Below, piece after piece: positions 29,130 through 63,399 of a stretch of 64,000 bases of DNA. Position 1 is the stretch's first letter. Each line of letters starts with the position of its first letter. The position numbers and the translations under genes are program-made. The stretch is from Mytilus galloprovincialis (taxonomy: Eukaryota; Mollusca; Bivalvia; Mytilida; Mytilidae): the NCBI RefSeq assembly GCF_965363235.1, contig NC_134843.1, forward strand, positions 2,356,001 to 2,420,000. Reading direction: 5' to 3'. The notes under the pieces were generated by a model that saw only the letters and a program-made list of their open reading frames with translations, was not told where the DNA came from and searched no databases.

Positions 29130-29214
29130 TTATTTTGTCTTTTTGGTTTCTCCGTCTTCATCATCATAAGACACACCAAATTCATTGACTCTCTTCATAT
29201 CAACAGGGTATAAC
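29130..29214 (-). CDS. CLPTM1L: CLPTM1L exon 17 (terminal coding)
   Basis: Completes W498 and encodes [20 protein letters not shown] and a short basic tail, stop TAA at 29132-29130. Acceptor ctttttcag. The acidic-then-basic C-terminal tail is cytosolic by family topology. Confidence 0.95.
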
Positions 29215-35200: not shown

Positions 35201-38200
35201 GTTGAATGAAAAAAATATTGTTTTCACAAACGCTGAACTGGAAAACATTGTGAATGTAAAAAATAAAAATATTACATTTTTTAGGACATCAAACTATGAA
35301 AGTAGAAGGATGTTATGTTTACTGGAAGCTGTGTGACATTATGAAGACAGAAAATAAAAAGTATATAAAAATGTTATTTCGACTTAAAACTTTCATTCCT
35401 TTTTTTTCATTCCTCTTTGTGGCTTGTGTCACTTTTTAAACTTCAAACTTAAAATATCACTTAACTGCATGGTGTGCACATGAATTTTTTTCAATGATGC
35501 ATTTTATTGTTTCGGGTGTTGCTTGTTTTTCGTTGCATATAAATTAGACCATTGGCTTTACATTAGTCATTTTTGGGGCCCTTTATAGCTTGCTGTTTGG
35601 TGTGAGCCAATGCTCTGTGTTGAAAACCTTATTTTGACCTAGAAATGTTTACTTTTTACATATTGTGACTAGGATGGAGTGTTGTCTAATTGGCACTCAA
35701 ACCACATCTTCATATATCTATGAAGATTATCTCCCTTTGAAGGTTTCTATGATAGAATTCAATGTCAAGAGAAGCTACTATTGTTTAACTGAGTAGTTAT
35801 TATTTACCTTTTATGTGGAACATAAAATAAAGAGTAGATCGCACCACCTATCACTAATGGCAACAATACAAAGGATAAATACTTCATTGCCTGTAAAACA
35901 ATATAAAGAAGATATAATGTTTTCTTGTACATATTTCAAAGATGCTAAAAATGTCAATTTGATAAACATGCAACACCAAAATTAATAAATACAAAAACGT
36001 TATTTTGCATCACATATTTGTTTCAAGGCAAACTCAAGAATCAGAGTTTGTAACCATCTCCCTAGAAGAATAGCTCCATTAATAATAAATAGGGAGTGTG
36101 TCTATTGGACACAGATGATGCTCCCACTTGTCTATCATATAAATTTAAACTTGAGGCTCTTTAGAGCCTGTGTCGCTCACCTTGGTCTATGTGCATATTA
36201 AACAATGGACACAGATGGATTCATGTTTTGGTGATGGTGATGTCTTTGTAGATCTTACTTTACTAAACATTCTTGCTGCTTACAATTATCTCTATCTATA
36301 ATGAATTTGGCTCAATAGTTTTAGTGGAAAATGTTAGTGAAAATTTACAAATTTTATGAAAATTGATAAAAATTGACTATAAAAGGCAATAACTCCTTAG
36401 GGGGTCAATTGATCATTTTGGTAATGTTGACTTTTTTTGGGGGTCTTACTTTGCTGTACATTATTGCTGTTTACAGTTTATCTCTAACTATAATAATATT
36501 CAAAATAATAACAAAACTAGAGGCTCTAAAGAGCCTGTGTCGCTCACCTTGGTCTATGTGCATATTAAACAAAGGACACAAATGGATTCATGACAAAATT
36601 GTATTTTGGTGATGGTGATGTGTTTGAAGTTCTTACTTTACTGAACGATTTTGCTTCTTAAAATTATATCTATAATGAACTTTGCCCATTAGTAACAGAG
36701 AACTATATTTGGTAAAAATTTACATATATTTACCAAATTAATGAAAATTGTTAAAAATTGACTATAAAGGGCAATAACTCCTTAAGGGGTCAATTGACCA
36801 TTTAGGTCATGTTGACTTATTTGTAGATCTTACTTTGCTGAACATTATTGCTGTTTACAGTTTATCGCTATCTATAATAGTATTCAAGATAACCAAAAAC
36901 GGCAAAATTTCTTTAAAAATTACCAATTGGAGGGCAGCAACCCAACAACCAGTTGTCCAATTCATCTGAAAAATTCAGGGCAGATAGATATTGACTTGAT
37001 TAACAATTTAACTTCTTGTCAGATTTGCTCTAGATGCTTTGAATTCATAGTTATAAGCCAAAAACTGCATTTTACCCCTATGTTCTATTTTTAGCCGTGG
37101 CGGCCATCTTGGTTGAATGGCCAGGTCATCGGACACATTTTTCAAACTAGATACCCCAAAAATGATTGTGGCCTAGTAGTTTCAGTGGAGATTTTGTAAA
37201 AGATTACTTAGATTTATGAAAAATGGTTAAAGATTGACTATAAAGGGCAATAACTCCTAAAGGGGTCAACTGACCATTTTGGTCATGTTGACTTATTTGT
37301 AGATCTTACTTTGCTGAACATTATTGCTGTTTACAATTTATCTCTATCTATAATAATATTCAAGATAATAACCAAAAACAGCAAAATTTCCTCAAAATTA
37401 CCAATTCAGGGGCAGCAACCCAACAACCGATTGACCGATTCATCTGAAAATTTCAGGGCAGATAGATCTTGACCTGATAAACATTTTTATCCCATGTCAG
37501 ATTTCCTCAAAATGCTTTGGTTTTTGAGTTATAAGCCAAAAACTGCATTTTACCCCTATGTTCTATTTTTAGCGGTGGCGGCCATCTTGGTTGGTTGACC
37601 AGGTCACGCCACACATTTTTTAAACTAGATACCCCAAAGATGATTGTGGCCAAGTTTGGATTATTTTGGCCCAGTAGTTTCAGAGGAGAAGATTTTTGTA
37701 AAAGATTAATTTAATTTATGAAAAATGGTTAAAATTGACTATAAAGGGCAATAACTCCTAAACGGGTCAACTGACCATTTTGGTCATGTTTACTTATTTG
37801 TAGATCTTACTTTGCTGAACATTATTGCTGTTTACAGTTTATCTCTATCTATAATAATATTCAAGATAATAACCAAAAACAGCAAAATTTCCTCAAAATT
37901 ACCAATTCAGGGGCAGCAACCCAACAACCGATTGACCGATTCATCTGAAAATTTCAGGGCAGATAGATCTTGACCTGATAAACATTTTTATACCGTCAGA
38001 TTTCCCCAAAAGATTTGGTTTTTGAGTTATAAGCCAAAAACTGCATTTTACCCCTTTGTTCTATTTTTAGCCGTGGCGGCCATCTTGGTTGGTTGACCAG
38101 GTCACGCCACACATTTTTTAAACTAGATACCCCAAAGATGATTGTGGCCAAGTTTGGATTAATTTGGCCCAGTAGTTTCAGAGGAGAAGATTTTTGTAAA

Positions 38201-41200
38201 AGATTACTTTAATTAACGAAAAATGGTTAAAAATTGACTATAAAGGGCAATAACTCCTAAACGGGTCAACTGACCATTTTGGTCATGTTGACTTATTTGT
38301 AGATCTTACTTTGCTGAACATTATTGCTGTTTACAGTTTATCTCTATCTATAATAATATTCAAGATAATAACCAAAAACAGCAAAATTTCCTCAAAATTA
38401 CCAATTCAGGGGCAGCAACCCAACAACCGATTGACCGATTCATCTGAAAATTTCAGGGCAGATAGATCTTGACCTGATAAACATTTTTATACCGTCAGAT
38501 TTCCCCAAAAGATTTGGTTTTTGAGTTATAAGCCAAAAACTGCATTTTACCCCTTTGTTCTATTTTTAGCCGTGGCGGCCATCTTGGTTGGTTGACCAGG
38601 TCACGCCACACATTTTTTAAACTAGATACCCCAAAGATGATTGTGGCCAAGTTTGGATTAATTTGGCCCAGTAGTTTCAGAGGAGAAGATTTTTGTAAAA
38701 GATTACTTTAATTAACGAAAAATGGTTAAAAATTGACTATAAAGGGCAATAACTCCTAAACGGGTCAACTGACCATTTTGGTCATGTTGACTTATTTGTA
38801 GATCTTACTTTGCTGAACATTATTGCTGTTTACAGTTTATCTCTATCTATAATAATATTCAAGATAATAACCAAAAACAGCAAAATTTCCTCAAAATTAC
38901 CAATTCAGGGGCAGCAACCCAACAACCGATTGACCGATTCATCTGAAAATTTCAGGGCAGATAGATCTTGACCTGATAAACATTTTTACCCCATGTCAGA
39001 TTTGCTCTAAATGCTTTGGTTTTTGAGTTATAAGCCAAAAACTGCATTTTACCCCTTTGTTCTATTTTTAGCCGTGGCGGCCATCTTGGTTGGTTGACGG
39101 GTCACGCCACACATTTTTAAAACTAGATACCCCAATGATGATTGTGGCCAAGTTTGGTTTGATTTGGCCCAGTAGTTTCAGAGGAGAAGATTTTTGTAAA
39201 AGTTAACGACGACGGACGACGGACACCAAGTGATGAGAAAAGCTCACTTGGCCCTTCGGGCCAGGTGAGCTAAAACCGGCAAAATTTCCACAAAATTACC
39301 AATTCAGGGGCAGCAACTTAACAACCGGTAAACCGATTTATCTGAAAATTCTAGAGCAGACAGATCTTCACCTGATAAACAATTTCACCTTCTGTTAAAT
39401 TTGCTCTAAATGCTTTTGTTTTTGAGTTATAAGCCAATAAAAACTGCATTTTACCCCTATGTTCTATTTTTAGCCATGGCGGCCATCTTGGTTGGTTGGC
39501 TGAGTCAAGGGACACATTTTTTAAACTAAATACCCCAATAATGACTGTGGCCAAGTTTGGTTTAATTTTGCCCAGTAGTTTCAGAGGAGAAGATTTTTCT
39601 AAACGATTACTAAGATTTACGAAAAATGGTTAAAAATTGACTATAAAGGACAATTACTTCTAAAAGGGTCAATTGACCATTTTGGTCATGTTGACTTATT
39701 TGTAAATCTTACTTTGCTGAACATTATTGCTGTTAACAGTTTATCTCTATCTATAATAACATTCAAGATAATAACCAAAAACAGCAAAATTTCCTTAAAA
39801 TTACCAATTCAGGGGCAGCAACTTAACAACAGGTTGTAGGATTCATCTGAAAATTTCAGGGCAGATATATCTTGACCTGATAAACAATTTCAGCTCCTTT
39901 CAGATTTGCTCTAAATGCTTTGGTTTTTGAGTTATAAGCCAAAAACTGCATTTTACCCCTATGTTCTATTTTTAGCCATGGCGGCCATCTTGGTTGGTTG
40001 GACGGGTCACTGGACACATTTTTTAAACTAGATACCCCAACAATGATTGGGGTCAAGTTTGGTTTAATTTGGCCCAGTGGTTTCAGAGGAGAAGAATTTT
40101 GTAAAAGTTTATGACGACGGACGAAGGATGCAAAGTGATGACAAAAGCTCACTTGGCCCTTTGGAAGAGTTTGAGCTAAAAAGTGTTCTGTAAAATCTAG
40201 TAAGGTTTTTAATTTGGATTTATTTATCTTAAGCTGAAATCAGATGGTATGCAGGGTTGTCAGATTAAAAAAATAAATTCTGCTAAATACTGCTATAATC
40301 AATTTCGTTCAGTTATTGTAAAATGTCTTACTAGAGAATCAAATGCTTCTGTTTCCTTTTCTTTGTCTGATGTCGAACCAATCTAAAATGTAACATTAAA
40401 ACTCAGTTAATCAAAGCTACAGAGATTGATATCTATTTAAAAAATAAACACCCAGAGTATTCATCAATGTAATTTCAAGGATTGGTTCCTCATCTTTTTA
40501 TCCATCTTTTCATAATACATGAAAAAACATACAGTCAAACCTGATTAAACCGCCCCCCTGAATAAACCGGCTTCCAGTCCATTCCGGCCGAAAATGAAAG
40601 TCCCATATTTTTCCATTCAAAGTCTTTGTTAAAAAACCCTTTGTAAACCGGACCCTGTGTATTACGAATTCCGGTCTAATTATGAAGTCCCAATACTCTT
40701 AATTACATTAATTATTACCTGTCAAAACCGGTTTGTCTAATTAGTTTCAATGATCGATATGCAATCAAAAAATATTTTTTTTTATACAATATGGCTTTTC
40801 GTGAAAATCAATTAGTCAGGTGTCAAACTGTGAACCTACAATCGTACAGTAGTGAGCTGTATTATTTATTAAAACATTATAAACATGTCAATTAAACGAA
40901 AGACACACCGAATATATCTCGGATTGAACTTACGTTTTAACTTGGATAAACAAATTCAAATTCCGGAGTAAGAAATTCGCATCGTGATTTCGAAATCCTG
41001 AGTTCCCTGTTATGAACCCCTAAACAAATGACCTTGATAATGAAAAACACCGGATGACAACAATCAATGGATATTGTATACTGAACGACAACGTTTCGAA
41101 AGGGATGAAATTACGTTTGATAATATTCTGGTTTTTAATCGGCCATTCAAACATTTCAAATTATTGATCATGGGAGTACAATTCAAACAATGCGAGCATT

Positions 41201-44200
41201 ATGATGCAAATGCAAACAATGAAAAACGAAGTGAAAGTATTTTAATTTATCAGATATAGTTTACAATCAGAGAGAACTTTTACATGCAAAATGTCGGACG
41301 TCACAAGTCATTAACTTCCGGTCAAAACGGAAACCTGAATAAACCGGCTCACTGTCCAAACCGGCCCTTTTTCATAATCCCGTAGCCGGCCGGTTTATAC
41401 AGGTTTTACTGTATAAGTATACGTAAAAAGCTTACTATTTCTAAATTGAAAGCTTAGACATATAAGTTCAAATTGTTGTTGATTTATCATTGCAAATCTT
41501 ACACTTCTGGGGAATCATATAAAAACAAAGCCCGTTATTTACCCACTAGAAAATTTGGATTTTTTGTCATAAATATAAATATACCATATCACTTCTTTAC
41601 AATTATAAAATAACTTACATCAAACTTTGGTTTTCCATTTTCAAATCTAAATGAAACTTTGAAAGCTTTCTTTACTTTCCATCCCTACAAAAGAAACAAG
41701 AATGGCATAACTTCGAAAACAGATAGAACCATAATGTATACTTATACTTGCTAACATCAATTGTTCATTTTACAGGCACAAATATCATTCATCTGGCTAT
41801 GCTGAGGCAGTGCTGGAGCCAGTAAAACTCATTTGTAACAGTAAAATCAATAACTTACTTTGACAAACATCAATATACAATACAGTTATTACCTAAATAT
41901 TCTTTCTTTTAAAAAAAATAATCAAAATGTCAAAATGTTCCAGATTGACAAATTTATAAAAAGACTTCTAGTACTGTGAAAGTACTTTTGTTTGTGGGTA
42001 TCAATTTTCATGGTTTTATCAAAAGTTACAAGACCCTAATCAAGAAAAAACCTAACCTCTATGTAGGTATCAGTACCAGTAAACTGGGTTCCCGATCACA
42101 TTAACACCTACCTCTATGAACGCTCCAATTCCAGTTGGTATCAGTACCAATAAACTGGTTTCCTGATCACATTAACACTTACCTCTATGAACGCTCCAAT
42201 TCCAGTTGGTATCAGTACCAATAAACTGGTTTCCTGATCACATTAACACCTACCTCTATGAACGCTCCAATTCCAGTTGGTATCAGTACCAATAAACTGG
42301 TTTCCTGATCACATTAACACCTACCTCTACGAATGCTCCAATTCCAGTTGGTATCAGTACCAATAAACTGGTTTCCTGATCACATTAACACCGACCTCTA
42401 TGAACGCTCCAATTCCAGTTGGTATCAGTACCAATAAACTGGTTTCCTGATCACATTAACACCTACCTCTATGAACGCTCCAATTCCAGTTGGTATCAGT
42501 ACCAATAAACTGGTTTCCTGATCACATTAACACCTACCTCTATGAACGCTCCAATTCCAGTTGGTATCAGTACCAATAAACTGGTTTCCTGATCACATTA
42601 ACACCTACCTCTATGAACGCTCCAATTCCAGTTGGTATCAGTACCAATAAACTGGTTTCCTGATCACATTAACACTTACCTCTATGAATGCTCCAATTCC
42701 AGTTGGTATCAGTACCAATAAACTGGTTTCCTGATCACAAAGGTAGAAAAATATAATAACAGTTGACACACATCTCCATACAACTGAAATAAACAAAAAG
42801 AGATAAAAATATAATTAACATTTATCTCACAAATCAAAAGAATGACAGAAAATAGATAAATGACCAAAATACACAATTGTTCTGTACAGAGCAGTGAGAT
42901 ATACAATAAGCAACATCAATATCAAAACACAAACAATTGCTGGGTCAAGGACAATGTCGATATATGCAATTGATTCATTTCATACAAAACCATTATGCTT
43001 CATCGCCAAACAGAAAATAGCTACACAGAAGATAATAAAATTGCCTACAAGTATGATTTAACATTATCAAGTTGCAAATTAAAATTAAAATGTTCAACTA
43101 ATGACAAATTTTCTATAGGCATGTATAAAGGTTTTGGCAAAACCACGATATTATATATCAACGATAATGCAAGTTGTCCTTAATCCATGAAAAATGGTAC
43201 CCACGAAAATAAATGAATCCACACTACCTAAGTTTTTTTTCCTATTGCTGTTAAACAAGGAAACATATCTTAGTCTCTTCATGAAAATCTACTAACCTGC
43301 CCTTGTAGACAAACCAACCATAGTTTTTCTCTGTCTCCAGTAGCTACTAACCTGCCCTTGTAGACAAACCAACCATAGTTTTTCTCTGTCTCCAGTAACT
43401 AATATCATTCTTAAAGGCCAGAAATCTACTAACCTGCCCTTGTAGACAAACCAACCATAGTTTTTCTCTGTCTCCAGTAACTAATATCATTCTTAAAGGC
43501 CAGAAAATCTACTAACCTGCCCTTGTAGACAAACCAACCATAGTTTTTCTCTGTCTCCAGTAGCTAATATCATTCTTAAAGGCCAGAAAATCTACTAACC
43601 TGCCCTTGTAGACAAACCAACCATAGTTTTTCTCTGTCTCCAGTAGCTAATATCATTCTTAAAGGCCAGAAATCTACTAACCTGCCCTTGTAGACAAACC
43701 AACCATAGTTTTTCTCTGTCTCCAGTAACTAATATCATTCTTAAAGGCCAGAAAATCTACTAACCTGCCCTTGTAGACAAACCAACCATAGTTTTTCTCT
43801 GTCTCCAGTAGCTAATATCATTCTTAAAGGCCAGAAAATCTACTAACCTGCCCTTGTAGACAAACCAACCATAGTTTTTCTCTGTCTCCAGTAGCTAATA
43901 TCATTCTTAAAGGCCAGAAATCTACTAACCTGCCCTTGTAGACAAACCAACCATAGTTTTTCACTGTCTCCAGTAACTAATATCATTCTTAAAGGCCAGA
44001 AATCTACTAACCTGCCCTTGTAGACAAACCAACCATAGTTTTTCTCTGTCTCCAGTAACTAATATCATTCTTAAAGGCCAGAAAATCTACTAACCTGCCC
44101 TTGTAGACAAACCAACCATAGTTTTTCTCTGTCTCCAGTAGCTAATATCATTCTTAAAGGCCAGAAAATCTACTAACCTGCCCTTGTAGACAAACCAACC

Positions 44201-47200
44201 ATAGTTTTTCTCTGTCTCCAGTAGCTAATATCATTCTTAAAGGCCAGAAAATCAAATAATAACTGAAATGAGAAAAATAAACAATAAACAGATGCACTGT
44301 TAAATAACTACCACATAAGAATGCATGTCAATAAACAATAAACAGATGCACTGTTAAATAACTACCACATAAGAATGCATGTCAACATACAAGATATTTA
44401 TATTTAAGTGAAGGAACATTAACCAGGATATGAAACATGAAACATGAAAACTTAATTAAACGCCTATTTCTACATATACAATATGTATTCAATGGTGTTG
44501 TACATAAATGACATATAAAATACAAAAATAATATACCAAAATACAATATGTATGTACTATACCAAAAATTGAAAATATACACTGTGATACACAAGAAAAA
44601 AGTCAGAAAAGTTCAAAATAATTTTCGAAATACAATGTTTTCACCCGACATTTAAAAGTATCCAAAGATTCAGAGTTTCATACATTTGTACCTAGTTCAT
44701 TCCACAATTTTGGCCCAATAGTACTAAAGCTTCTATCTGAAAAAGTTTCTTTTTGTTATATGGGACTGCATAACAACCAATAGATGACTCTGACGACCTT
44801 AATGAACGTTTCGACACTTGAGGATTTAACAAATTGATCAAATATGACGGTGCATTACCTATATGACAGTTGTACATATATGTTAAGATTTTGAATGTAA
44901 TTCTGGCTTTGATCGGAAGCCAATGTAAGTCAAACAATGCCTGCTTGGCATTATCATACTTAGAATGGTTTAACACAAGTTTGGCACACATATTCTGTAT
45001 ACGTTGCAATTTATATAAATCAGTTTGTGAAATTCCAAAAAGTATAACATTGCAATAATCTAAATGTGATATAACCAAAGATAAGACCAAAGTTTCAGTT
45101 GCTTCTTTCGATAGATAGGATCTTATGCACTTTATTTTGTAGTAGTTCATCATTGCTGTTTTACATTTTTTAGTAATATGGTCTTTGAAGTTTAGAGTCT
45201 CATCCAGAAAAGCTCCTAAGTACTGTATACATGTTCTTGATTTTATAACATCTCAACAAATGATTATTTCTTTTGTCTGACATTTAGAGAGTTGGTGTCG
45301 ACTGCCAAAGAGAATGAACTCTGTTTTCGCATTGTTCATTTTTAGTTTGTTACTGTTCATCCAGGTGTTTATATGAACAGCGCAGTCCTGTAAGTCACGA
45401 ATTGCATCCATCTCATTCGTTAATGTTGGCATGAAACGTTTATTAGCAGTATGGTCGTCGGCAAATTCGTACACAGTAATGGATGATAGAATAATGTCGA
45501 ATAGAGTTCCGGCGTAGACTAAATAAAGCCAGGGACCTAAGCAACTTCCCTGTGGTACGCTACACTCAAGTTGTCGCTCTGATGATGTTGTAGAGCTGAC
45601 ATTTACACGACAGCTTCGAGGTCTCAAATAGGAATCGATCCATTTAAGTGCGGTTCCATTTACACCGTACTGATATTCGAGTACTTTTATCAAAATACTA
45701 TGATCTACAGTATCGAATGCTGCACTTAAATCAACGGCGATCATAGCGGTGACTTCTTGATGCTCCATCCCATCAAGTATGTCATTAACGAGTCGTAGAA
45801 GGGCCGATTCGCACGAATGGAATTGACGATACGCAGATTGGTTTGTAGGAAGGAGATCATGATCTTTCACATGTTCATTCAGTCTATATAGCGCCCATTT
45901 TTCAATTAATTTAGACAGGAAAGACAAGTTGCTTACTGGTCTATAATTTGAGTAAATTAGTTCAAGACCAGCCTTTTTCAGCAGAGATATCTCTTTTAAA
46001 AGGGGCATAATTCTGGAATTTTATAAAATGTCTGATTTCTTTAGGCAATTAATACAAGAATGAGTAGAGGATCAAATGAAAGTATTGTTTTTGTGTGCAC
46101 TAAAAAGATTCAAATAAATATCAAAGTGCTTTCATTTTTCAGTGAGGCTGTTTTATGATTTGGTTTCACTTCAATTATGGACAAAGGAAGATAACTTCTA
46201 TTTTACCAATCAATTTAACAATTCCATCATTGATAATTTTGAATAGATATTAGATATGCCATTCATGCACCACACACAATTCAAGTAAGGTTCCTGACAA
46301 GTGTAGTTATACATATACACATCATTTTGTAACTTGAATATCTGAGTATATATTTCTTGAAATGTCCCTGATATGATGCATAGAATCATGTTCTCAATGT
46401 CTGGAAAATTAATAACTATCAAGCCAGACAAGAATAGCTGTTTTCCATTTTATAGAAAAACAAACTTACATGAAAAGCAGATACAGCAAATGTTAACATC
46501 AGAAAATAAAAATTTGTGTCAACAAATATACCCTTCAGTTCATCTGAATCTTTCTCTGAAAATCCTGAAATGATATAATACACAGAAAATTACATTAACT
46601 TAAAATGGTTTAAGATCTATTCTTATATCATGTTAAATTCTATTCTATGACAGTCACTCTTTGCTACTCAAACCTAGAGGTTCATTTTTAGCAATAGTTA
46701 AACTTAAAATCAACTGATTTATAAATTTTCAAATATCTATCAAACATTTTTTGTGCTTATCATCTGTAAAATAAATTGGACCTCGTGATGAAGACTTTAT
46801 TTGACCTATAATGATTTACTTTTACAAATTGTGACTTGAATGGATGGTTGTCTCATTTGCACTCATGCCACATCTTATATCTAATTACAATGATAATTAC
46901 CATAACTATGTAACTGGTCTATTGCTTGTTGCATGTGTTCCCAAAACCTCAATTTTCCAACAGATATAGGTGAGTATACTACTGTTAGAGGTAATGAATG
47001 ACTAGATTTGTTTATTGGCTGAAAGGTAAAGGTAAAATACTGTAAATACACAAATTATTACATTCATTTATTACGGCCATTTTATCATTTTATACTAAAC
47101 TGTGATTTTATTTTTTATGATATTGAGGAAAATCCTAGTTAATCCATATAAAAAGTTTACTATATTGCAATTATTACTCAGTTGCATTTTTCGCAATAAT

Positions 47201-50200
47201 AACAACATCGCAATCATTTCTGAATTTACAGTAATCTATCATTTGTTACCTCCTCTACTGAATAATGTAAGCAGGGAGGGCCAGTTTAACTCCTCCACAT
47301 GTACAAAGTTTCAAGTTAATTGGACTTCAACTTCCTCAAAAACAACCTTGACCAAAAACTTTAACCTGAAGCAGGACAGACGGAGGGATGTACGAATGAT
47401 CGAATGGACAAACAGACCAGAAACATAATGCCTGTAAATGGTGCAAAAGAATTACAACATATTTGAGCGTGCAAGAGATCAAACCTTTAACCTTCTGCGC
47501 TCCAGAGGAATACCCTACCAGACTTTTTAGTAAATTCATTCATTTGGTAAATCCCCCTTTAAAAATAAACCCATAACATGCAAAAGTAATATCTAAAATT
47601 TATAAAAAACAGACCATTAAGGGCATACGATACAGTTACAGGGAAGATAATGACGTTGCTAACGTAAAATGTTATTTTCGTGACGTCAAACTATGACATA
47701 TCATGAAAAGATGCATTTTTCGACTGATTTTTATCATTCAAACTGATTTAATTTGAAAACGAGTGCATGGACCCCTATTTTTTTAAAATAGCGATTTGTT
47801 TCATTTTGCAAGGAGATTATGTGACCCAAATTTTATAAAACTGTAAACTGTTTTAATTTTAATAAACATGCAGCAAAAAATGACATTTGATAAATATAGA
47901 GTTATTTCGGAATAAAAATTGCATAATTTCTAATGATACTTATAAAATACAAAAATTACCGATTATTTAACAAAAAACAATTTGTGTTTATCTTTTAAAG
48001 CAAAAAAGTTATGTCGTTCTTTCGAAAAAGAAAATACGGACACAAATCTGAATTTTGAGCAAATATACAAAATTTCGACCTCATTTTACTCAAAAAGTAG
48101 CACATGAAGGTATATTTTTTATGACATATTTGATTTAATCAGGTAAAAAATAGCCTATATGCAAATTTTCATCAACTTGTAAATACAGGTTCAAAACTGT
48201 ATCGTATGCCCTTAAGTAGATTCATTCATATGGTGAATGTGAAATATTAATAAATGGATGACAACTAACTCACCACTAAATCTTTTGTACGGAAAGCTAA
48301 CTGATCAATGTACAACATTGGTAGATAATCTCCATCAGGTGAGGGTCTGTAAAGTCAAATTATATATATTAACTGTATTTAGCTTCCTGTCATGAGTTTT
48401 TGCCTAGCATTTTTTGTTTTTGTTTTTTTTGTTTAAAAAATCTTATTCCCAAAACAATGATTGGTTAATTAACAGTAAAAATGAGTGTTACATAATAAAA
48501 AAGTAAAATTAAATTTACATGAAAAAATTTGCTAAACAGATTTTTTTTTAAATACAACTAATTGTAAATCTATAATTTCTTTCAATCTTTGAGATGTTCA
48601 CTATGCATCCTATGACCAAATTAATAGCCCAATTTAAAAATCTATTTGGTTCATTTATCCAGGGAAAAACACATCTATTTTAAAGAATGTATGCCTTTTT
48701 CTATGGAATAAACAAAATCAAGTTTTCTTTTTTTTGGAAAAGTTTGCCTTTAGATAGACATGTAAATGATACATTTACTTTATAAGTCTATGAATCTCCA
48801 TGGGCATGGCTCTCCTGTCAAACTGAATAGAATCAGCCATCACAGATATAATGACTCTCTGTCTCAGATGTGTGATAGGTATGTCAGGACTAGTTTTATT
48901 CTGAAATGGAATACAAAAATCACCTGATAAGAATTTACTTGTGTATATGCGCATTTACATATAATGTCCTCATTAACTACAAAATTTCATGAAATTCTGT
49001 CGTGTGGTTTCAGAGAAGTTGCGATAGTATAATAATTCTAAGTTCAAAGGAGCATTATTTCTAGAAAAAAAAATATATCGTAATTTCCAGTTGATAGACA
49101 CATCTACATAGTACAATGTAGTATGTCCTTATTGTCTACAAAGTTTCATGAAATTTGGTTGTGTGGTTTAAGGGGAATTGTGATGACATACTGTTGCAGT
49201 AGTATATTGTGACCAAAATTCTTAGTTAAAGGGGCACAACTCCTAGAAAAATTTTTAATAGTACTTTCCTGTCGATATGCACATCTTCATATTAATAAAT
49301 GTGTCATTATTTACAAAGTTTCATGAAATTCTGTTGTGTGGTTTCAGAGGAGTTATGATGACAAGAACAGGACCGATGAACAGACAGACGGACCGGTCAA
49401 AAACATTATACCCTTTGAAACTTGTTGAGGTGGGTTTAATTACTTGTGAAATGAATTTGAGTTTTAAGTGTGTATAGTTGTTTTTTGTGAGTGTATGTAT
49501 ACTGTATTATCCCAACCTTTGCTGTGTCTGTCACCAAACTGAAGAACTCTGACTCACTGTGGCAGAGAGTATGTAGTTATAGGTGTGTGTGTGTAGGTGT
49601 GTTTTTCCTGTATTATTCCTACCTTTACTGTGTCAGTCATCAAACTGAAGAGCTACGACTGGGGGTGAGAGTATGTAGTTATAGGTGTGTGTGTGTAGGT
49701 GTGTTTTTCCTGTATTATTCCTACCTTTACTGTGTCAGTCATCAAACTGAAGAGCTACGACTGGGGGTGAGAGCATGTAGTTATAGATGTGTATGTGAAT
49801 TGTGTGTAGGTGTGTTTGTCCTGTATTATCCCTACCTTTGCTGTGTCAGTCATCAAACTGAAGAACTCTGACTGGGGGTGAGAGTATGTAGTTATAGATG
49901 TGTATGTGAATTGTGTGTAGGTGTGTTTGTCCTGTATTATCCCTACCTTTGCTGTGTCAGTCATCAAACTGAAGAACTCTGACTGGGGGTGAGAGTATGT
50001 AGTTATAGATGTGTATGTGAATTGTGTGTAGGTGTGTTTGTCCTGTATTATCCCTACCTTTGCTGTGTCAGTCATCAAACTGAAGAACTCTGACTGGGGG
50101 TGAGAGTATGTAGTTATAGATGTGTATGTGAATTGTGTGTAGGTGTGTTTTTCCTGTATTATTCCTACCTTTACTGTGTCAGTCATCAAACTGAAGAGCT

Positions 50201-53200
50201 ACGACTGGGGGTGAGAGCATGTAGTTATAGATGTGTATGTGAATTGTGTGTAGGTGTGTTTGTCCTGTATTATCCCTACCTTTGCTGTGTCAGTCATCAA
50301 ACTGAAGAACTCTGACTGGGGGTGAGAGTATGTAGTTATAGATGTGTATGTGAATTGTGTGTAGGTGTGTTTTTCCTGTATTATTCCTACCTTTGCTGTG
50401 TCAGTCATCAAACTGAAGAGCTACGACTGGGGGTGAGAGCATGTAGTTATAGATGTGTATGTGAATTGTGTGTAGGTGTGTTTGTCCTGTATTATCCCTA
50501 CCTTTGCTGTGTCAGTCATCAAACTGAAGAACTCTGACTGGGGGTGAGAGTATGGAGTTATAGATGTGTATGTGAATTGTGTGTATGTGTGTTTGTCCTG
50601 TATTATTCCTACCTTTGCTGTGTCAGTCACCAAACTGAAGAATTCTGACTGTGGAAGTGAGTACATAGTTATAGGTGTGTATGTGTATGATCCATACAAA
50701 GTTTGAAATGGATCCTGTCCCTTAGGTACTACAAAGGCATGTAGATACATTGTTCCATTGTTTCTCACTTTGTACGGTATAGATATATTAACTGTCCTGA
50801 AATATACAAGTTAAAACATCATGCATACGGTCAAATATTGCTCTTCATCAAAGATATAACGCCATACAAACAGTCTCGGTCATATAATTTTCAAAAATAT
50901 AGGGAGACACTATATACATGATATATATATATGCTATATATACATAAAACCTTAACCTTATATACATATATATGATATAGGGATTCTGTGATTACAGGTT
51001 TCACTTTACTATCTTTCATTTAAAGACTGTCATCCATAAAGTTGTTCAGTTAAGATATAACGTAACCAAACCCCATCCCATACATCTCCAAATGTTAATG
51101 CATGAAGCTTGAGGTATGGAAATATGGTCATTAGTTAGTGTTCTTGACACTTGCAATAAAGCTGTTTGATAATGTATGACTTACAAAGTCTGAGTCAAAT
51201 CCAGGCAGAATGGGGACTTCAAATATGTTCTCTGATGTACATTGTTGACAGAATAGTGCCAGGTTCTCTACACATTTAGAACCCTTGCAACAACTTTTTA
51301 TAGAGGTCTTATGGTAAGCTTGTAGCAAGACTAAATTTCTATCCCTATCCAATGTATCCTCATTTTCCAGTGACAATCAGAATTGCATGTCCTTCATCCT
51401 GGTTGTAGGACCTACAGATAAAATTGTTGATATGTTCTTGTCTAGAACATGGATGAAGTATTTGCCACTGGACATAAATCAAACAACAATTAACTAATTT
51501 CAATGTAAGAAAACAAATGATTTTTTTCCCATATATAATAAGGAAATCTTCACTAAGATAACAGTTTTGTTGAAACCATGACACTATAATACCATCTTTA
51601 CCTTAGAAAAGTTCCCTTAATTATGACACTCTTCCAAATTTATTTCATAAAACCAAGATAGGGATCAACGTTTTATAGATTTTACACTTTTTGATGGTAC
51701 ACTTACAATGACGTATTGTGGAGTGGGCTACCAACTTTTTGTTGATTTCGTGGTAAGAGTTTAACCACGAATTCAAATGTTCAAAAGTGCAAAATTTCTT
51801 TCTGCTTGTATCATGTGTATGCAAACTTTTGCAAAACCACAAAATCAAATACTCACATAAATAAATTTTTCTTGGGTCGACGAAAATAAATGAATCCACA
51901 GTACATTGTACTTACTTTTCCACTGTGTCATGGACATCAAATGTAGTATTCATCCAGACAAGTTTTAAATCAGATTCCTTGGCTCCCATTCCTCTTGTAG
52001 ATGTATAAACTTTAATCTGTAATACATAAAAAAAGATAAACAATTCTTCATAAACATGATTAAATCAGATAATAACAAGAGGCTGTCACAACAACAGCAA
52101 ACCGGATTTATTAACATTTATTTGTGTCCTGGCAATATGACAAAAACCATAACTGATGAACGGTGAAAGTGAAAATCGTTAATATCAAATTTGACCTCCA
52201 TTTTGCCATCAGTACCAACATATTAAAATTTGAAAAGCTTAGGTTGAATGGTTCATGAGCATGATGAGTAAATGCAACAACATGAACGGAAACACCATTT
52301 TTCAATCTTTCATAACCATAACTCCTGAACGGTAAAAGTCAAAATCAAAATTATTGAACTTGACCTCCATTTTGTCATCATTCAGTAACAAGTTACTAAC
52401 AACATATTGAAATTTGAAAAGCTTTGGTGGAACAGTTCACAAGTAAATGCATGGACACGACTGGAAACACCATTTTTAAATCTTTCAAGAACCATAACTC
52501 CTGAACGGTAAAATTCAAAATCATCATTATTGAACTCGACCTCCAATTTGTCATCAGTAACAACATATTAAAATTTGAAAAGCTTTGGTGGAACAGTTCA
52601 TGTGTAAATGCACTGACACGACTTGAAACACCATTTTTCAATCTTTCAAGAACCATAACTCCTGAACGGTACAAGTCAAAATCGTCATTATTGAACTTGA
52701 CCTTCATTTTATTGTCAATAGCAACATATTAAAATTTTAAAAGCTTTGGTTGAGCAGTTCATAAGTAAATGCACAGACAACATTTGGTTGTTGGCCGCCA
52801 GACAGCCATAAATCCCCAAATCTATAACCGACATTTTTTCACAAAAATCCGGTTAAAAATTCTACATAATAAAATTGAGAATGGAAATGGGGAATGTGTC
52901 AAAGAGACATCACCCAACCAAAGAGCAGAAAACAGCTGAAGGTCACCAATGGGTCTGCAATACAGCGAGAAAATCATGCACCTATGGCATGCTTCAGCAG
53001 TAAAAATGTATAGATAGAGGTTATTTATTTCACATCAGCATTGACATACATGACTGATAAATAAGGGGCAACAATTCTATATTATGGATAAAAAAGGACT
53101 GAATCTCTTCATAAGCATGAATAAACAAGGGACTAATATTCTACATAAACATGGGTACATAAAGGACTTTAATTCTACATAAACATGGATAAACCAAGCG

Positions 53201-54025
53201 CTAAAATTCTAAGTCAGATTTTTTCACTACTTACTTTTCTTATTCATAAAACTTAACATGACAAAGACTCCAGGCTGAAAGTCTGATGATTGTTTTCTTC
53301 TATTAAATATCTACATGATCTACATGGGAATTAATAAAACACAAGTTCACACAGAACCATGTTAACAAATCTCTTTAATTAAACATTGAATTGTATTGTT
53401 TTATCAAAACTTGTCTTAAGGATGTACTTAGGTGAGGTTAGGTGAAAATTAATAAATAAAGAATTTAAAATTGATACTTTAAGCCGGTAGAGCATCCGTT
53501 AGGGATAAACATAAGCTAAAAATATTGATAGGTCATGGACCTCCTTTTCGAGATATTTGAGATTTAAATTATGGCGGGAAAAACTTGTCTTAATTCAAAC
53601 TTCCATTATTTTGAAATGTGATCTATAACTTTGGTTCAGATTGCCTTCAGATGATGCTATGCTTTAAGCAGTGGTTAAAAAAAATGATAAATAAAATAAC
53701 AAAAATACCAAACTACAAATAAAATTCTAAACGGAAAGTCCTTAAGTAAATGACAAAATCATAAGCTCAAACAAGTAAAACGAATCGATAACTACTGTCA
53801 TATTCCTGACTTTGTACAGGCATTTTCTTATGTAGAAAACAGTGGATTAAGTTACAAGTTACTTACTTCTAATTTTGGTTCTGGTTTCCGATCTAAGTAT
53901 GATGGTATACAAGATTTTGAATCTTTACATGGTGTTGGGAAGAATATACCAACTATAACCCACATGGAATGTGCTATGTAAGCTAGAAATATGACTGAAA
54001 CAATGGCAGTAAATGATGGCTTCAT
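29130..54025 (-). CDS. CLPTM1L: CLPTM1L: ER multipass membrane protein, complete 17-exon gene (525 aa)
   Basis: The orthologue of animal CLPTM1L (CRR9), an ER membrane protein reported to act in GPI-anchor biosynthesis as a glucosaminylated-phosphoinositide scramblase. Exons (transcript order): 54025-53867, 52016-51916, 50796-50613, 48900-48779, 48346-48274, 47018-46901, 46564-46470, 44262-44178, 42783-42680, 41684-41619, 40382-40332, 35890-35808, 34909-34875, 32347-32292, 31850-31806, 31452-31337, 29214-29130. Every join is GT-AG, and the phases give one frame of 525 residues (the human protein is 538). An N-terminal membrane segment (about 6-28) precedes a lumenal domain with sequons at N90 and N100. 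Further hydrophobic segments lie near 270-292, 316-347, 390-410, 424-444 and 461-476. Landmarks: [63 protein letters not shown]. Oddity: exons 3, 8 and 9 are each followed by tandem copies of their own 3' end and splice donor. The orthology is very secure. Confidence 0.96.
29279..29505 (-). repeat. 5'-truncated retroelement 3' fragment in CLPTM1L intron 16
   Basis: Runs from 'ataaaattgagaatggaaat' to 'aagaaactaaaattaaaata'. Its reverse complement matches 54640-54880 ('ggggccagctgaaggacgcc', 'cactgaactagtatat'). Confidence 0.7.
29598..31226 (-). mobile_element. Hairpin-ended element with a 166-bp tandem interior, in CLPTM1L intron 16
   Basis: On the minus strand it starts at about 31226 with 'ctagaggctctcaagaacct' and 'tcgctcacct', and ends at 29598 with 'ccaggtgagct'. 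The interior is about eight copies of a 166-bp unit ('ggaatgaaaccaaacatggc', 'caagatggccgccagc', 'gacttagtttaacatagg'). Repeating 62-residue frames on the minus strand come from this array and are not genes. Confidence 0.75.
31337..31452 (-). CDS. CLPTM1L: CLPTM1L exon 16
   Basis: Residues 460-497 plus two bases of Trp498 ([20 protein letters not shown], then [18 protein letters not shown]). Acceptor atatttcag, donor gtaagt. Confidence 0.96.
31806..31850 (-). CDS. CLPTM1L: CLPTM1L exon 15 (45 nt)
   Basis: Residues 445-459, [15 protein letters not shown]; vertebrates have [15 protein letters not shown]. Acceptor ccatttcag, donor gtaaat, phases 0 and 0. Confidence 0.96.
32292..32347 (-). CDS. 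CLPTM1L: CLPTM1L exon 14
   Basis: Completes Gly426 and encodes [18 protein letters not shown] (427-444), nearly identical to vertebrates. Acceptor tttttttag, donor gtaagt. Confidence 0.96.
32348..34359. other. CLPTM1L intron 13, mostly unrecognised
   Basis: AT-rich intron DNA. About 33690-34035 resembles, in rearranged form, the element at 53416-53745 (shared 'gatgtccttaggtgagg' and 'cctatcaatatttttggctt'). No further exons are needed here, because the exon 13 to 14 join is in frame. Confidence 0.5.
34360..34795 (+). repeat. Dispersed mussel repeat, near full-length, in CLPTM1L intron 13
   Basis: The reverse complement order of 5815-6182: 'ttatgttgtactgttctacc', 'caagtcaggagcctgtaatt', 'gttttctcgtttgaattgtt', 'ggccgtacggtgacctatag', 'ctcattggcaatcatacca'. 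Confidence 0.75.
34875..34909 (-). CDS. CLPTM1L: CLPTM1L exon 13 (35-nt micro-exon)
   Basis: Completes codon 414 and encodes [11 protein letters not shown] plus one base of the next Gly; the human protein has WYSWLINSFVNG. Acceptor tttttcag, donor gtaagt. A dispersed repeat copy ends about 80 bp away (34360-34795). Confidence 0.93.
35505..35725 (+). repeat. Dispersed repeat fragment in CLPTM1L intron 12
   Basis: 'gggccctttatagcttgctg', 'tgactaggatggagtgttgt' and 'ttggcactcaaaccacatct' match the plus-strand half of 25665-25985. Confidence 0.6.
35808..35890 (-). CDS. CLPTM1L: CLPTM1L exon 12
   Basis: Residues 387-413 plus two bases ([20 protein letters not shown], then LFYVPHK). Membrane segment. 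Acceptor ttttacag, donor gtaaat. Confidence 0.95.
36148..36516 (+). mobile_element. 5' part of an older hairpin-ended element, split by a nested copy
   Basis: Begins 'cttgaggctctttagagcct' and runs through part of the internal unit to 'ataataacaaaa'. Its continuation resumes at 39276 after the nested element. The split point falls inside the conserved string 'aataaccaaaaacagcaaaa'. Confidence 0.75.
36517..39271 (+). mobile_element. Hairpin-ended element with about five 0.5-kb tandem units, nested in CLPTM1L intron 11
   Basis: Starts 'ctagaggctctaaagagcct' and ends in 'ggcccttcgggcc' plus 'aggtgagct'. Inside are about five units of roughly 500 bp, each with 'gccatcttggttgg', 'actagataccccaa', 'gaggagaagatttttgtaaa' and 'ggggcagcaacccaacaacc'. 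Units from about 37560 to 39000 are almost identical, so their amplification is recent. AAAA occurs on both sides (36513-36516 and 39272-39275). Confidence 0.8.
39276..40176 (+). mobile_element. 3' part of the older hairpin-ended element
   Basis: Resumes with 'ccggcaaaatttccacaaaa' and continues through two diverged units to a degraded 3' hairpin ('gctcacttggccctttgg', then 'ttgagct'). Joined to 36148-36516 it gives one continuous element. Confidence 0.7.
40332..40382 (-). CDS. CLPTM1L: CLPTM1L exon 11
   Basis: Residues 370-386 ([17 protein letters not shown]), an acidic stretch like SESERKTEEYDTQ in the human protein. Acceptor cattttag, donor gtaaga, 51 nt, phases 0 and 0. Confidence 0.9.
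40532..41411. mobile_element. Pogo/Tigger-like MITE (880 bp) in CLPTM1L intron 10
   Basis: The left end CAGTCAAACCTGATTAAACC and the right end (read inward) CAGTAAAACCTGTATAAACC are inverted copies. The dinucleotide TA lies on both sides (40530-40531 and 41412-41413). CAGT-type ends with a TA duplication are typical of pogo-like Tc1/mariner elements. No transposase frame is present. Confidence 0.75.
41619..41684 (-). CDS. CLPTM1L: CLPTM1L exon 10
   Basis: Residues 348-369 ([17 protein letters not shown]...); matches LWKVKKALKM of the family. Acceptor ttttgtag, donor gtaagt, phases 0 and 0. Confidence 0.94.
42050..42679 (-). repeat. Tandem array of CLPTM1L exon 9 end plus splice donor (71-bp unit)
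   Basis: Read on the minus strand, each unit holds the last 59 or so bases of exon 9 (encoding [17 protein letters not shown]), then the donor (gtaggt in most, gtaagt in one, gtcggt in one) and about 12 intron bases. Eight clean copies plus one degenerate copy follow the native exon. The unit start 'gtgatcagg' is present both in the exon and 12 bases into the intron, so the duplication joint shows microhomology. Confidence 0.95.
42680..42783 (-). CDS. CLPTM1L: CLPTM1L exon 9
   Basis: Completes codon 313 and encodes 314-347 ([17 protein letters not shown], then [17 protein letters not shown]). Acceptor atttcag, donor gtaagt. The last 59 or so bases plus the donor are repeated in the array at 42050-42679. 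This copy is the functional one because only it carries the unique upstream half. Confidence 0.95.
43284..44177 (-). repeat. Tandem array of CLPTM1L exon 8 plus splice donor (82-83-bp unit)
   Basis: Eleven further copies of 'ctggcctttaagaatgatat' to 'gtctacaagggcag' followed by gttagt and a few intron bases. The exon's 'gattttctggcc' recurs directly after 'gttagta' in the intron, which is the repeat joint. The unit is not a multiple of three. The copy nearest the array's far end is shorter (53 bp spacing). Confidence 0.95.
44178..44262 (-). CDS. CLPTM1L: CLPTM1L exon 8
   Basis: Residues 285-312 plus one base ([19 protein letters not shown], then TMVGLSTRA). Acceptor ctcatttcag, donor gttagt. 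All but the first 13 or so bases, plus the donor, recur eleven more times in the array at 43284-44177. A 54-bp direct duplication lies just outside the acceptor (44276-44383). Confidence 0.95.
44276..44383. repeat. 54-bp direct duplication next to the exon 8 acceptor
   Basis: 'aataaacaataaacagatgc' to 'aagaatgcatgtc' occurs twice in a row, identical, starting about 14 bases into intron 7 from the exon 8 acceptor. Confidence 0.9.
44600..46010 (-). mobile_element. 5'-truncated LINE (non-LTR reverse transcriptase) in CLPTM1L intron 7
   Basis: Minus-strand frame 46008-45253 encodes reverse transcriptase: [17 protein letters not shown] (fingers), [11 protein letters not shown] (palm motif A), [18 protein letters not shown] (motif B), FADDHT (catalytic FADD box) and KTEFILFG. 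After one in-frame TGA at about 45252 the same frame continues (45249-44692) with the LINE C-terminal region ([31 protein letters not shown]). A frameshift near 44740 moves the conserved GPKLWNEL into another frame. The endonuclease and most 5' sequence are missing. Dead copy, in the same orientation as the host gene. Confidence 0.92.
46470..46564 (-). CDS. CLPTM1L: CLPTM1L exon 7
   Basis: Completes codon 253 and encodes 254-284 ([17 protein letters not shown]..., then the start of a membrane segment ending FAVSAFH). Acceptor catttcag, donor gtaagt, exit phase 0. Confidence 0.95.
46785..46885 (+). repeat. Dispersed repeat 3' fragment
   Basis: 'tttgacctataatgattta' to 'ctcatttgcactcatgccac' matches the 3' end of the family at 25665-25985; it ends about 16 bp from CLPTM1L exon 6. 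Confidence 0.6.
46901..47018 (-). CDS. CLPTM1L: CLPTM1L exon 6
   Basis: Residues 214-252 plus one base ([19 protein letters not shown], then [12 protein letters not shown]). Matches LPLTVSYDKVSLGRLRFW. Acceptor ctttcag, donor gtaatt. A fragment of a dispersed repeat lies immediately downstream (46785-46885). Confidence 0.94.
47265..47455 (+). repeat. Dispersed repeat in CLPTM1L intron 5
   Basis: 'caaagtttcaagttaattgg' followed by 'caggacagacggagggatgt' has the layout of a known molluscan interspersed repeat. It resembles the 49310-49440 unit in its 'acagacggac' tail. Recognised from memory only. Confidence 0.4.
47617..48215. mobile_element. TTAA-flanked inverted-repeat element (piggyBac-like MITE) in CLPTM1L intron 5
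   Basis: Ends GGGCATACGATACAGTT are inverted at 47621 and 48211. TTAA lies at 47617-47620 and 48212-48215, the target used by piggyBac transposons. The interior is non-coding. Confidence 0.75.
48274..48346 (-). CDS. CLPTM1L: CLPTM1L exon 5
   Basis: Completes codon 189 and encodes 190-213 ([16 protein letters not shown]...), matching YLPILFIDQL of the family. Acceptor tttacag, donor gtgagt, exit phase 0. Confidence 0.94.
48779..48900 (-). CDS. CLPTM1L: CLPTM1L exon 4
   Basis: Residues 149-188 plus two bases of 189; contains [13 protein letters not shown], the counterpart of LALNVMADNFVFD in the human protein. Acceptor ccatttcag, donor gtaaat. The phase 0 entry fits the exon 3 donor at 50612. 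Confidence 0.94.
48965..49440 (+). repeat. Diverged tandem repeat (two to three units of about 180 bp)
   Basis: Each unit carries 'caaagtttcatgaaattctg', 'gtgtggtttcagagga' and 'tcctagaaa'. The last unit ends with 'gaacagacagacggaccgg'. Confidence 0.65.
49490..50612 (-). repeat. Tandem array of CLPTM1L exon 3 end plus splice donor (about 111-bp unit)
   Basis: Read on the minus strand, each unit holds about 67 bases from the exon 3 end, a donor (gtaggg or gtagga; gttggg in the last) and about 40 intron bases rich in 'cacctacacac'. Ten copies follow the native exon. Two versions alternate: one reads [16 protein letters not shown], the other has TAG after SHPQS. Long open frames on both strands across this region are artefacts of the 111-bp period. 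Confidence 0.95.
50613..50796 (-). CDS. CLPTM1L: CLPTM1L exon 3
   Basis: Completes codon 87 and encodes 88-148, including the conserved [12 protein letters not shown] with sequons N-I-S (90) and N-G-T (100). Acceptor atatttcag, donor gtagga. The last 67 or so bases plus the donor are repeated downstream as the 111-bp array at 49490-50612. Confidence 0.93.
50797..51915. other. CLPTM1L intron 2, unrecognised
   Basis: Contains two minus-strand frames of 74-84 codons with cysteines (around 51131-51376) but no consistent splice sites. The exon 2 to 3 join is already in frame without them. A small AT-repeat-rich patch lies at 50910-50980. Confidence 0.45.
51916..52016 (-). CDS. CLPTM1L: CLPTM1L exon 2
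   Basis: Residues 54-86 plus two bases of codon 87 ([11 protein letters not shown]...). Acceptor ttacag and donor gtaag. Matches the lumenal domain start of the family (VYTTTR in the human protein). Confidence 0.93.
52078..52857 (-). repeat. Tandem repeat block in CLPTM1L intron 1 (four units of about 165 bp)
   Basis: Each unit carries 'accataactcctgaacggta', 'tgaacttgacctccatttt', 'atattaaaatttgaaaagct' and 'gaaacaccatttttcaatc'. The block is bracketed by 'aaaccggattt' at the left and 'aaaatccggtt' at the right, an inverted pair, so it may be an element with a tandem interior. Confidence 0.7.
52866..52992 (-). repeat. 5'-truncated retroelement 3' fragment in CLPTM1L intron 1
   Basis: 'ataaaattgagaatggaaat' to 'ggcatgcttcagc', the same fixed end as at 29279 and 17988. 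Confidence 0.65.
53416..53745. mobile_element. Possible TTAA-flanked MITE in CLPTM1L intron 1
   Basis: TTAA followed by 'ggatgtacttaggtgagg' on the left, and 'ggaaagtcc' then TTAA on the right. The inverted match is short. Related pieces occur at 33690-34035 and near 55070 ('acctgagtacatccttaa'). Confidence 0.45.
53867..54025 (-). CDS. CLPTM1L: CLPTM1L exon 1 (coding)
   Basis: Residues 1-53, starting [11 protein letters not shown]; it holds the first membrane segment and a conserved Cys pair (TPC, SC). It ends at gtaagt, phase 0. The ATG at 54025 aligns with the family start. A good acceptor (tattttatttcag) lies just upstream, with AG at 54057-54056, and the frame is open to it, so this exon may be internal with a separate 5' UTR exon further upstream. 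Confidence 0.92.
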
Positions 54026-62900: not shown

Positions 62901-63399
62901 CTACCAGAGCCTTTGTTCCTATACGAGGATTACCTCTTTATAGTTAATGATACTCTAGGAGAATATGGCATCGAGTCTGAAATGAAAATCAACTGTACAG
63001 ACAATGTGAAATTACAAAATTCTACAGGTATGTTCAAAACGTAACTTCCCAGCTCAAATGGCAACGCTTTTAAAAATTAAAAATAATGTTTGATCGTTTT
63101 CTCTAAATTTGAATATATCAACCAAAAAAAATAAAAATAAATAAATAAAAAAAAAAAATCGCTCAGTGATAGGAAAAGATATGACATAAGGTAGATGTTT
63201 AAACCGCTGATATCGTTTTTCTGTACCATAAAGCTTTTTTACATCGTTGTATTGTGTATGTATTAATTAGTTACTACCGATAACCATTATTTTGAAGGTG
63301 CTTCATTGATAACCGCAGGTACGCCAGTTACCACTCAAAGCTACGTAATACTGACTTTGATATCAGGAGGAGACGGCTTGTGTAGGATACATTCACAAG
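59622..63399 (+). CDS. Secreted or membrane protein with tandem four-Cys modules, 5' part (697 or more aa)
   Basis: Exons: 59622-59640, 60504-60568, 61104-63027, and a probable fourth at 63319-63399 (or from 63298); the gene continues beyond the window. Exon 1 (ATGGCTAGAAATGGCTTAG|gtaaga) joins exon 2 to give the signal peptide MARNGLVVLVILVCPAM. Exon 2 ends CRDDE and joins exon 3 at IFCIRTGQC, which completes the first module and proves the join. Seventeen modules of about 30 residues (24 to about 540) follow the pattern C-x(3)-[ED]-x-x-C-L-x-x-G-x-C-[VI]-x(5-7)-C. They resemble the first half of an LDL-receptor class A repeat without its last two cysteines and acidic calcium cage. A Ser/Thr-rich stretch (about 545-605) and several N-glycosylation sequons come next. 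Function unknown; extracellular is the only safe inference. Confidence 0.8.
59887..59944. repeat. (TA)n microsatellite in intron 1 of the Cys-module gene
   Basis: About 28 uninterrupted TA dinucleotides. Confidence 0.95.
60504..60568 (+). CDS. Cys-module gene exon 2
   Basis: Acceptor gatctttcag, donor gtgact. Encodes the signal peptide core (VLVILVCPAMVSCYMQ) and CRDDE, the start of module 1. Confidence 0.78.
61104..63027 (+). CDS. Cys-module gene exon 3 (large)
   Basis: Acceptor at a strong pyrimidine tract (tttttttcgaccag), donor gtatgt after AATTCTACAG, phase 1. It holds the rest of module 1 and modules 2-17 plus the Ser/Thr-rich linker. All modules sit in one exon, so module number can change by unequal exchange. 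The ATG at 61080 lies in the acceptor tract and is not a start. Confidence 0.9.
63319..63399 (+). CDS. Cys-module gene exon 4 (probable)
   Basis: Phase 1 in and out, encoding TPVTTQSYVILTL and GGDGLCRIHSQ. A second in-frame acceptor at 63297 would add seven residues (63298-63318). The donor gtattg is weak. No stop in the frame. Confidence 0.5.

Follow-up and report, generated by a model that had tools for sequence, protein, structure and literature searches.

To our knowledge, most of what is known of duplicated splice sites comes from artificial constructs and from individual loci. One described case is the IFI6 type, where, to judge from a title cited in PMC2572611, PMC2915984 and PMC3618361, a tandem array supplies several splice donors. 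Tandem duplication across an intron-exon boundary is, in the accessible part of PMC4974935, a known route of intron gain, with ATP2A1 and fission-yeast cases also cited, and for human CLPTM1L the accessible part of PMC10815179 describes intronic minisatellites, one of them in intron 3. Here we describe a CLPTM1L-like gene of the mussel Mytilus galloprovincialis in which three exons are each followed by an array of their own 3' end and splice donor, and arrays of the same geometry at other genes of this bivalve; the window analysed is a stretch of 64,000 nucleotides (C6:2356001-2420000 of a 1.385-Gb genome, one assembly from one individual).

As in the IFI6 type, every array unit carries a GT donor at the exon end; the IFI6 type differs in being one locus with a much shorter unit (reportedly 12 bp), whereas the arrays described here have units of 28-111 bp at the sampled genes, occur in many genes and take in acceptors too. 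The likeness to intron gain by tandem duplication, as far as the accessible text on it goes, is that the duplicated segment crosses an intron-exon boundary, or consists of AGGT-bearing exon, and that splice signals are re-used; here, however, no new intron is needed, the ordinary 17-exon structure giving the full open reading frame (ORF), and copies reach at least 10. The human CLPTM1L minisatellites share the gene family and the intron 3 case, but the part of that source at hand describes them as intronic and says nothing of their spanning donors, and the likeness is most likely a coincidence. Head-to-tail units, a fairly uniform interior and altered end copies are also features of ordinary minisatellites or variable-number tandem repeats, from which the present arrays differ in being concentrated at exon edges. 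Our literature search, made on titles and abstract starts with few subscription journals covered, turned up no description of a genome-wide class of exon-edge arrays, and a Daphnia tandem-repeat paper (PMC3152781), in the portion available, makes no mention of splice sites.

A 17-exon model of the gene with GT-AG introns gives 1578 nt that form a single open frame of 525 amino acids (aa), so that the numbering of the array-bearing exons as 3, 8 and 9 in the original prediction is correct. A 421-aa part-concatenation of the exons belongs to the CLPTM1 family by its Pfam match (CLPTM1, PF05602, E 7e-99); over this concatenation the nearest relative, P0001 (525 aa), is 93% identical, and the oysters Saccostrea and Crassostrea stand at 69% and 68%. 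A search of the PDB returned no relative, and Rfam gave nothing at gathering scores. One candidate exon (51181-51376) was dropped when its frame failed, the true exon 2 being 51916-52016.

That exons 3, 8 and 9 are each followed by an array of the exon's 3' part, its GT donor and a short piece of intron, as had been claimed, is confirmed, with 11, 12 and 10 donors respectively (Table 1; arrays called with Tandem Repeats Finder (TRF), donors counted by cutting the minus strand at the GT donor, native site included). TRF placed array 9 at 42066-42739 (period 71, 9.5 copies), array 8 at 43344-44253 (period 83, 11.0 copies) with an adjoining row at 43289-43401 (period 55, 2.1 copies), and array 3 at 49690-50685 (period 111, 9.0 copies), periods of 222 and 333 extending the span of the last to 49502-50685. 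Donors are spaced by eight intervals of 111, then 102 and 106 at the distal end in array 3, by 82/83 and then 55 in array 8, and by 71 and then 55 in array 9. The units of 71, 83 and 111 bp thus run head to tail in the manner of minisatellites, the longest lying just over the usual range of about 10-100 bp, and altered distal copies flank a more uniform interior in all three arrays; the end copies are shortened throughout, with extra point variants at exons 3 and 9 and none at exon 8. Every unit has its donor: a pattern requiring GT finds 33, at gaps of about one unit in every case, so that none has been lost. A self-search with each exon and its 100-base flanks found tandem copies only at exons 3, 8 and 9 (best six hits per exon, which for exon 6 means the best 6 of 8), and by TRF and this search, at that depth, arrays stand at 3 of the 16 donors and at none of the 16 acceptors of the gene. 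A whole-exon unit, with acceptor as well as donor, was rejected for CLPTM1L because the start of exon 9 lies well upstream of the repeat unit. Among other DNA sources, neither genome_contigs nor viral_contigs contained an exact copy of one 31-base pattern taken from exon 8.

Table 1. The CLPTM1L-like gene, its array-bearing exons and their arrays (window coordinates).
Feature	Position	Strand	Description
CLPTM1L-like gene	29130..54025	(-)	17 exons, 525 aa; Pfam CLPTM1, full spliced model, TRF, exon self-search
CLPTM1L exon 3	50613..50796	(-)	native copy 1 at 3' end; acceptor CAG, donor GTAGGA; open in 525-aa model
First unit after exon 3	50502..50612	(-)	in frame, stop-free
Array 3	49502..50685	(-)	111-bp unit (~73 nt exonic, 38 nt intronic) with 11 donors in all
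CLPTM1L exon 8	44178..44262	(-)	spliced 525-aa model
Array 8	43289..44253	(-)	82/83-bp unit (76 nt exonic, 7 nt intronic) with 12 donors in all
CLPTM1L exon 9	42680..42783	(-)	spliced 525-aa model
Array 9	42056..42739	(-)	71-bp unit (~60 nt exonic, 11 nt intronic) with 10 donors in all

When six CLPTM1L arrays, chosen from the TRF rows (period at least 50, at least three copies), were placed at random in the gene, a donor was spanned by at least three of them in 1.7% of trials, and a boundary of any kind by at least three in 5.4%. The gene having been picked afterwards, these single-gene figures are weak evidence, and the whole genome was therefore examined by pattern searches, whose counts carry more weight. 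The samples were small and began with the first contigs listed; the matches were sorted into distinct arrays by eye, and exon-likeness was likewise judged by eye, unblinded, on an acceptor, an open frame and sometimes a Pfam match. Three copies of AGGTWRGT at gaps of 60-90 bases gave 4162 matches and the reversed pattern 3023 (1.4-fold), match counts to which we give no weight as evidence, since a handful of large arrays make up most of what is listed. Nine distinct arrays stood among the matches listed (C1:0.48-7.69 Mb), and seven of these (L004, L032, L034-L038) show an acceptor, an open exon and then repeats of the exon 3' end, donor and short intron; L014 and L019 are without this geometry. 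L004 (C1:479767-482922) comprises 39 copies of a 37-bp unit.

A second pattern, CAGGTAAGT in three copies, gave 248 matches, against 80 for the reversed 9-mer in three copies. The places listed run from C1 as far as C7:5.84 Mb, some 678 Mb provided that the list is complete in contig order, and hold 21 arrays, for all of which the flanks were fetched; 19 are exon-donor arrays, or 18 of 20 once L035, already present in the first sample, is set apart. The two misses are L044, which has no exon, and L039 (with L081), where the start of the array was not reached. Together the two samples put the geometry seen in CLPTM1L at 25 other exon-like sites in unrelated genes, and CLPTM1L is not special in this respect. 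The reversed 9-mer yielded seven arrays genome-wide, five of them in the interval that holds the 21 CAGGTAAGT arrays, and single copies of the two 9-mers are nearly equal in number (10,610 and 10,824 reversed); the comparison of 21 with 5 arrays gives p 0.0014 when normalised by the single counts and 0.0025 without. Two of the seven reversed-motif arrays (L102, L107), a set drawn irrespective of donors, are exon-donor arrays and the other five are not at exon edges. In L107 (C7:38745600-38748900) the 75-bp unit is open in the exon frame across the 330 bases examined, and read-through would give a repeat protein.

Among the first 20 single CAGGTAAGT sites listed of the 10,610, four are clear exon donors, or seven on a lenient count that takes in ambiguous sites (L098, L099, L100 being the ambiguous ones). 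The claim that minisatellites overlap donors beyond chance thus holds up in this small sample, with 19 of 21 arrays at exon-like donors as against 4 of 20 single sites (Fisher p 6e-6; lenient count 7 of 20, p 3e-4). At least five of the 20 single sites (L085, L088, L089, L093, L101; C1:0.5-2.7 Mb) resemble, by eye and unaligned, one dispersed repeat with a donor-like 9-mer. The idea that ordinary minisatellites came to lie on donors by chance in one unlucky gene could appeal to the 1.7% of random placements, weak after gene picking, and to the mere 1.4-fold excess of AGGTWRGT matches; the CAGGTAAGT array counts and the exon status of arrays as compared with singles speak against it, and we consider it very improbable. 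Still further from likely is an assembly artefact in which copies were collapsed or expanded: tandem arrays are error-prone in assemblies and these copies are known from the assembly alone, but they differ from one another by point variants, follow a three-unit pattern and are altered at the array ends, and arrays of this class appear again on contigs C1 to C7.

Curated Pfam cut-offs were passed by 6 of the 16 donor-array exon peptides scanned. In the first sample these were the exons of L035 (GDE_C, 1.2e-10, glycogen debranching enzyme) and L038 (CCDC24, 7.9e-7); nothing scored over the cut-off for L004, L032, L036 and L037, and L034 was too short for scanning. Among 10 exons scanned from the second sample, tyrosine kinase, TSP_1, Ras and carbonic anhydrase passed, DHHC and VWC fell below the cut-offs and four were without useful match. 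At the glycogen-debranching exon the array amounts to about 3.2 kb of 78-bp units (C1:7066749-7069966).

A hand estimate, which takes 20-35% of the 10,610 single motifs to be genuine donors, suggests that arrays with this spacing are present at about 1-2% of the genuine CAGGTAAGT donors within the interval, as against about 0.09% of reversed-motif sites. If 1-2% held for all donors, a gene with 16 donors would have a probability of about 0.0006-0.004 of carrying at least three arrays, and with tens of thousands of genes several such genes would therefore be expected. Three arrays in CLPTM1L would then need no gene-specific cause, provided that the genome-wide rate is as high as estimated.

Arrays at exon edges are found on the acceptor side as well. 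Searching for three copies of TTTTCAGR gave 758 matches against 349 for the reversed pattern, and 11 of the 22 acceptor-motif arrays among the places listed, on C1 and C2, are exon-acceptor arrays with an intact exon at their 3' edge (L071, whose unit is nearly all intron, being counted as an acceptor array), while the other 11 are not at exon edges. Pfam cut-offs were passed by three of seven scanned peptides from acceptor arrays (FKBP_C, Cation_efflux, Hamartin). A mechanism confined to donors is therefore not supported: of the original prediction that the three arrays share a mechanism, a recurrent process is supported, with arrays at many unrelated genes, and a special focus on the donor is not. 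Exon-edge arrays lie in genes matching CCDC24 (L038), tyrosine kinase (L043), Ras (L049) and Hamartin (L067, acceptor), where decoys are presumably tolerated. We also considered differential survival of donor over acceptor arrays under a rule that lets the first site win in every case. When duplications were placed exhaustively in CLPTM1L on that rule, most of those at acceptors were predicted to break the frame, a calculation in which donor survival is true by construction and acceptor failure was computed for two copies; the 11 exon-like arrays of the 22 weaken the survivorship idea, and the acceptor arrays are evidence against a simple first-site-wins rule.

The shape of the unit was tallied in 28 donor arrays (25 elsewhere and 3 in CLPTM1L), a sample already judged exon-like that may favour units with a recognisable exon part. 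The repeat joint just inside the intron, first noted at CLPTM1L, proved general: the intron part has a median of 16 nt in a median unit of 75 nt and is at most 27 nt in 23 of the 28 arrays, units are on average about 75% exonic, and two of the 28 contain the whole exon. In simulations with uniform breakpoints, 0 of 100,000 reached the observed mean intron part. This closeness of the intron breakpoint to the donor, and the fact that arrays are far more frequent at exon-like donors than at motif-matched sites, favour a mutational process targeted at exon edges in this lineage, splicing- or transcription-coupled, in which, for instance, breaks or template switching near U1-bound or R-loop-forming edges would create short tandem duplications at splice sites. 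We nevertheless hold such a process to be rather unlikely: it is hypothetical, the acceptor arrays would have it act at both exon edges, and the homology of 7 bp found at the joint of exon 8 is in keeping with generic duplication. That homology is an exact GATTTTC common to the exon at the joint and to the intron beyond the last copy. At exon 3 the exon and the terminal intron have ACATACAC and ATACACAC in common, in an AC-rich stretch, so that the exact position of the joint cannot be set, and at exon 9 the likeness is imperfect (TGATCAGG versus TGATTAGG). These joints suggest that the founding duplication at exon 8 joined a 7-bp stretch common to exon and intron, with exon 3 compatible and exon 9 imperfect.

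With respect to coding, the 525-aa protein is obtained only via donor 1 of each array, and the full CLPTM1L frame is open with native donors only, donor 2 of exon 3 excepted. Of the 30 extra donors, 29 meet a stop within the extension; the remaining one, exon 3 donor 2, would add 37 in-frame aa for a predicted product of 562 aa. No protein with this insert was found among 22 candidates scored, three relatives all having 525 aa without it, which is weak evidence given a database clustered at 90%. Across the donor arrays the unit length is divisible by three in 9 of 28, as chance expects, and donor 2 keeps the frame open in 5 of 28 (the tally uses first-unit lengths, in which L045 differs from the unit-shape tally). 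The frame data give no sign of selection for protein products, and the suggestion that the extra donors are maintained for alternative products finds no support in them or in the weak evidence on the insert protein. Selection for extra donors more broadly, whether as U1 sites shielding long introns from premature polyadenylation, as a way of slowing splicing or for alternative products, seems to us improbable. It could point to the up to 12 donors per CLPTM1L array and to the in-frame product of exon 3 donor 2, but besides the stops, the lack of a multiple-of-three bias and the missing insert protein, RNA folding of one unit per array showed no excess structure (z -1.24, -0.18, 0.20), and selection of this kind leaves the acceptor arrays unexplained.

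With exons identified by eye, the arrays repeat an exon edge together with the splice site there and a little of the adjoining intron, they lie on the intron side of an intact exon, and they occur in many unrelated genes at donors and acceptors. We think it probable that they are near-neutral exon-edge minisatellites, a class found throughout the genome of this bivalve. When a tandem duplication crosses an exon edge, a single intact exon that keeps both of its native sites would be left at the edge of the array; later copies resemble those of an ordinary minisatellite, with a more uniform interior and altered end copies. Under exon definition, the acceptor and donor closest across the exon would pair, and this would be the native pair in both geometries; since the native pair would win at donor and acceptor arrays alike, the extra splice sites would be mostly silent and the arrays nearly neutral and free to expand. 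More tentatively, seeding may favour exon-like, GC-richer sequence (the CLPTM1L arrays have 38-42% GC and their flanks 31-33%), arrays wholly within exons may be purged and those straddling an edge would remain.

Several points weigh against this account of near-neutral exon-edge minisatellites. Neutrality alone predicts exon edges at background level, so that enrichment needs a mutational preference that is unproved; GC content would explain an excess of this kind only poorly, and 2 of the 8 window arrays measured have GC below their flanks. The silence of decoys is something we infer, and in reporter work the intron-proximal of two duplicated donors is said to win in some settings. The skew of units to exonic sequence stands outside the account. 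As to the sampling, the AGGTWRGT counts, compared as matches and not as arrays, differ little from their reversed control and favour enrichment less than the array-level counts do; the 20 single sites come from one end of contig C1 and are unmatched to the arrays; of the 16 exon peptides from donor arrays that were scanned, 10 stayed below every Pfam cut-off, and those of L102 and L107 had no Pfam match. Finally, 8-bp strings shared by exon and intron also occur at the array-free exons 10 and 14, and therefore the length of a shared string proves nothing by itself.

The enrichment at exon edges could reflect either seeding bias with in-exon purging or a true hotspot. It is conceivable, as a tentative reading, that short tandem duplications have a hotspot at the exon-intron edges of this bivalve lineage, through repeated splicing- or transcription-coupled copying of exon edge and splice site, with roughly 1-2% of donors of the tested motif carrying at least three tandem splice sites, tolerated wholesale. 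A genome with such arrays would reveal if mutational hotspots lie at exon edges, a question that matters for the growth of introns and for their gain by tandem duplication. It is also a natural test of how the cell handles extra, decoy splice sites: as it holds many natural arrays whose donors or acceptors are nearly identical, RNA sequencing could show which of the sites is chosen, over what distance exon definition works and under what conditions decoys fail. For annotation the arrays carry a warning, as gene predictors and short-read assemblies may mishandle exons with arrays at their edges.

Elsewhere in the window, a 654-aa open frame at 61080-63041 (+) has cysteine-rich repeats with the motifs FCLxxGxCV / KCLQTGECV and gave no Pfam match at 0.001. 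Intron 7 of the CLPTM1L-like gene contains an RVT_1 reverse-transcriptase fragment (4.8e-27; 44692-46020 (-)) with a second ORF adjoining. A further array, at 29720-31145 in intron 16, has a 166-bp unit in 8.6 copies and a GC content of 41.5% against 30% in its flanks; it starts about 190 bp past the exon 16 donor, without spanning that donor.

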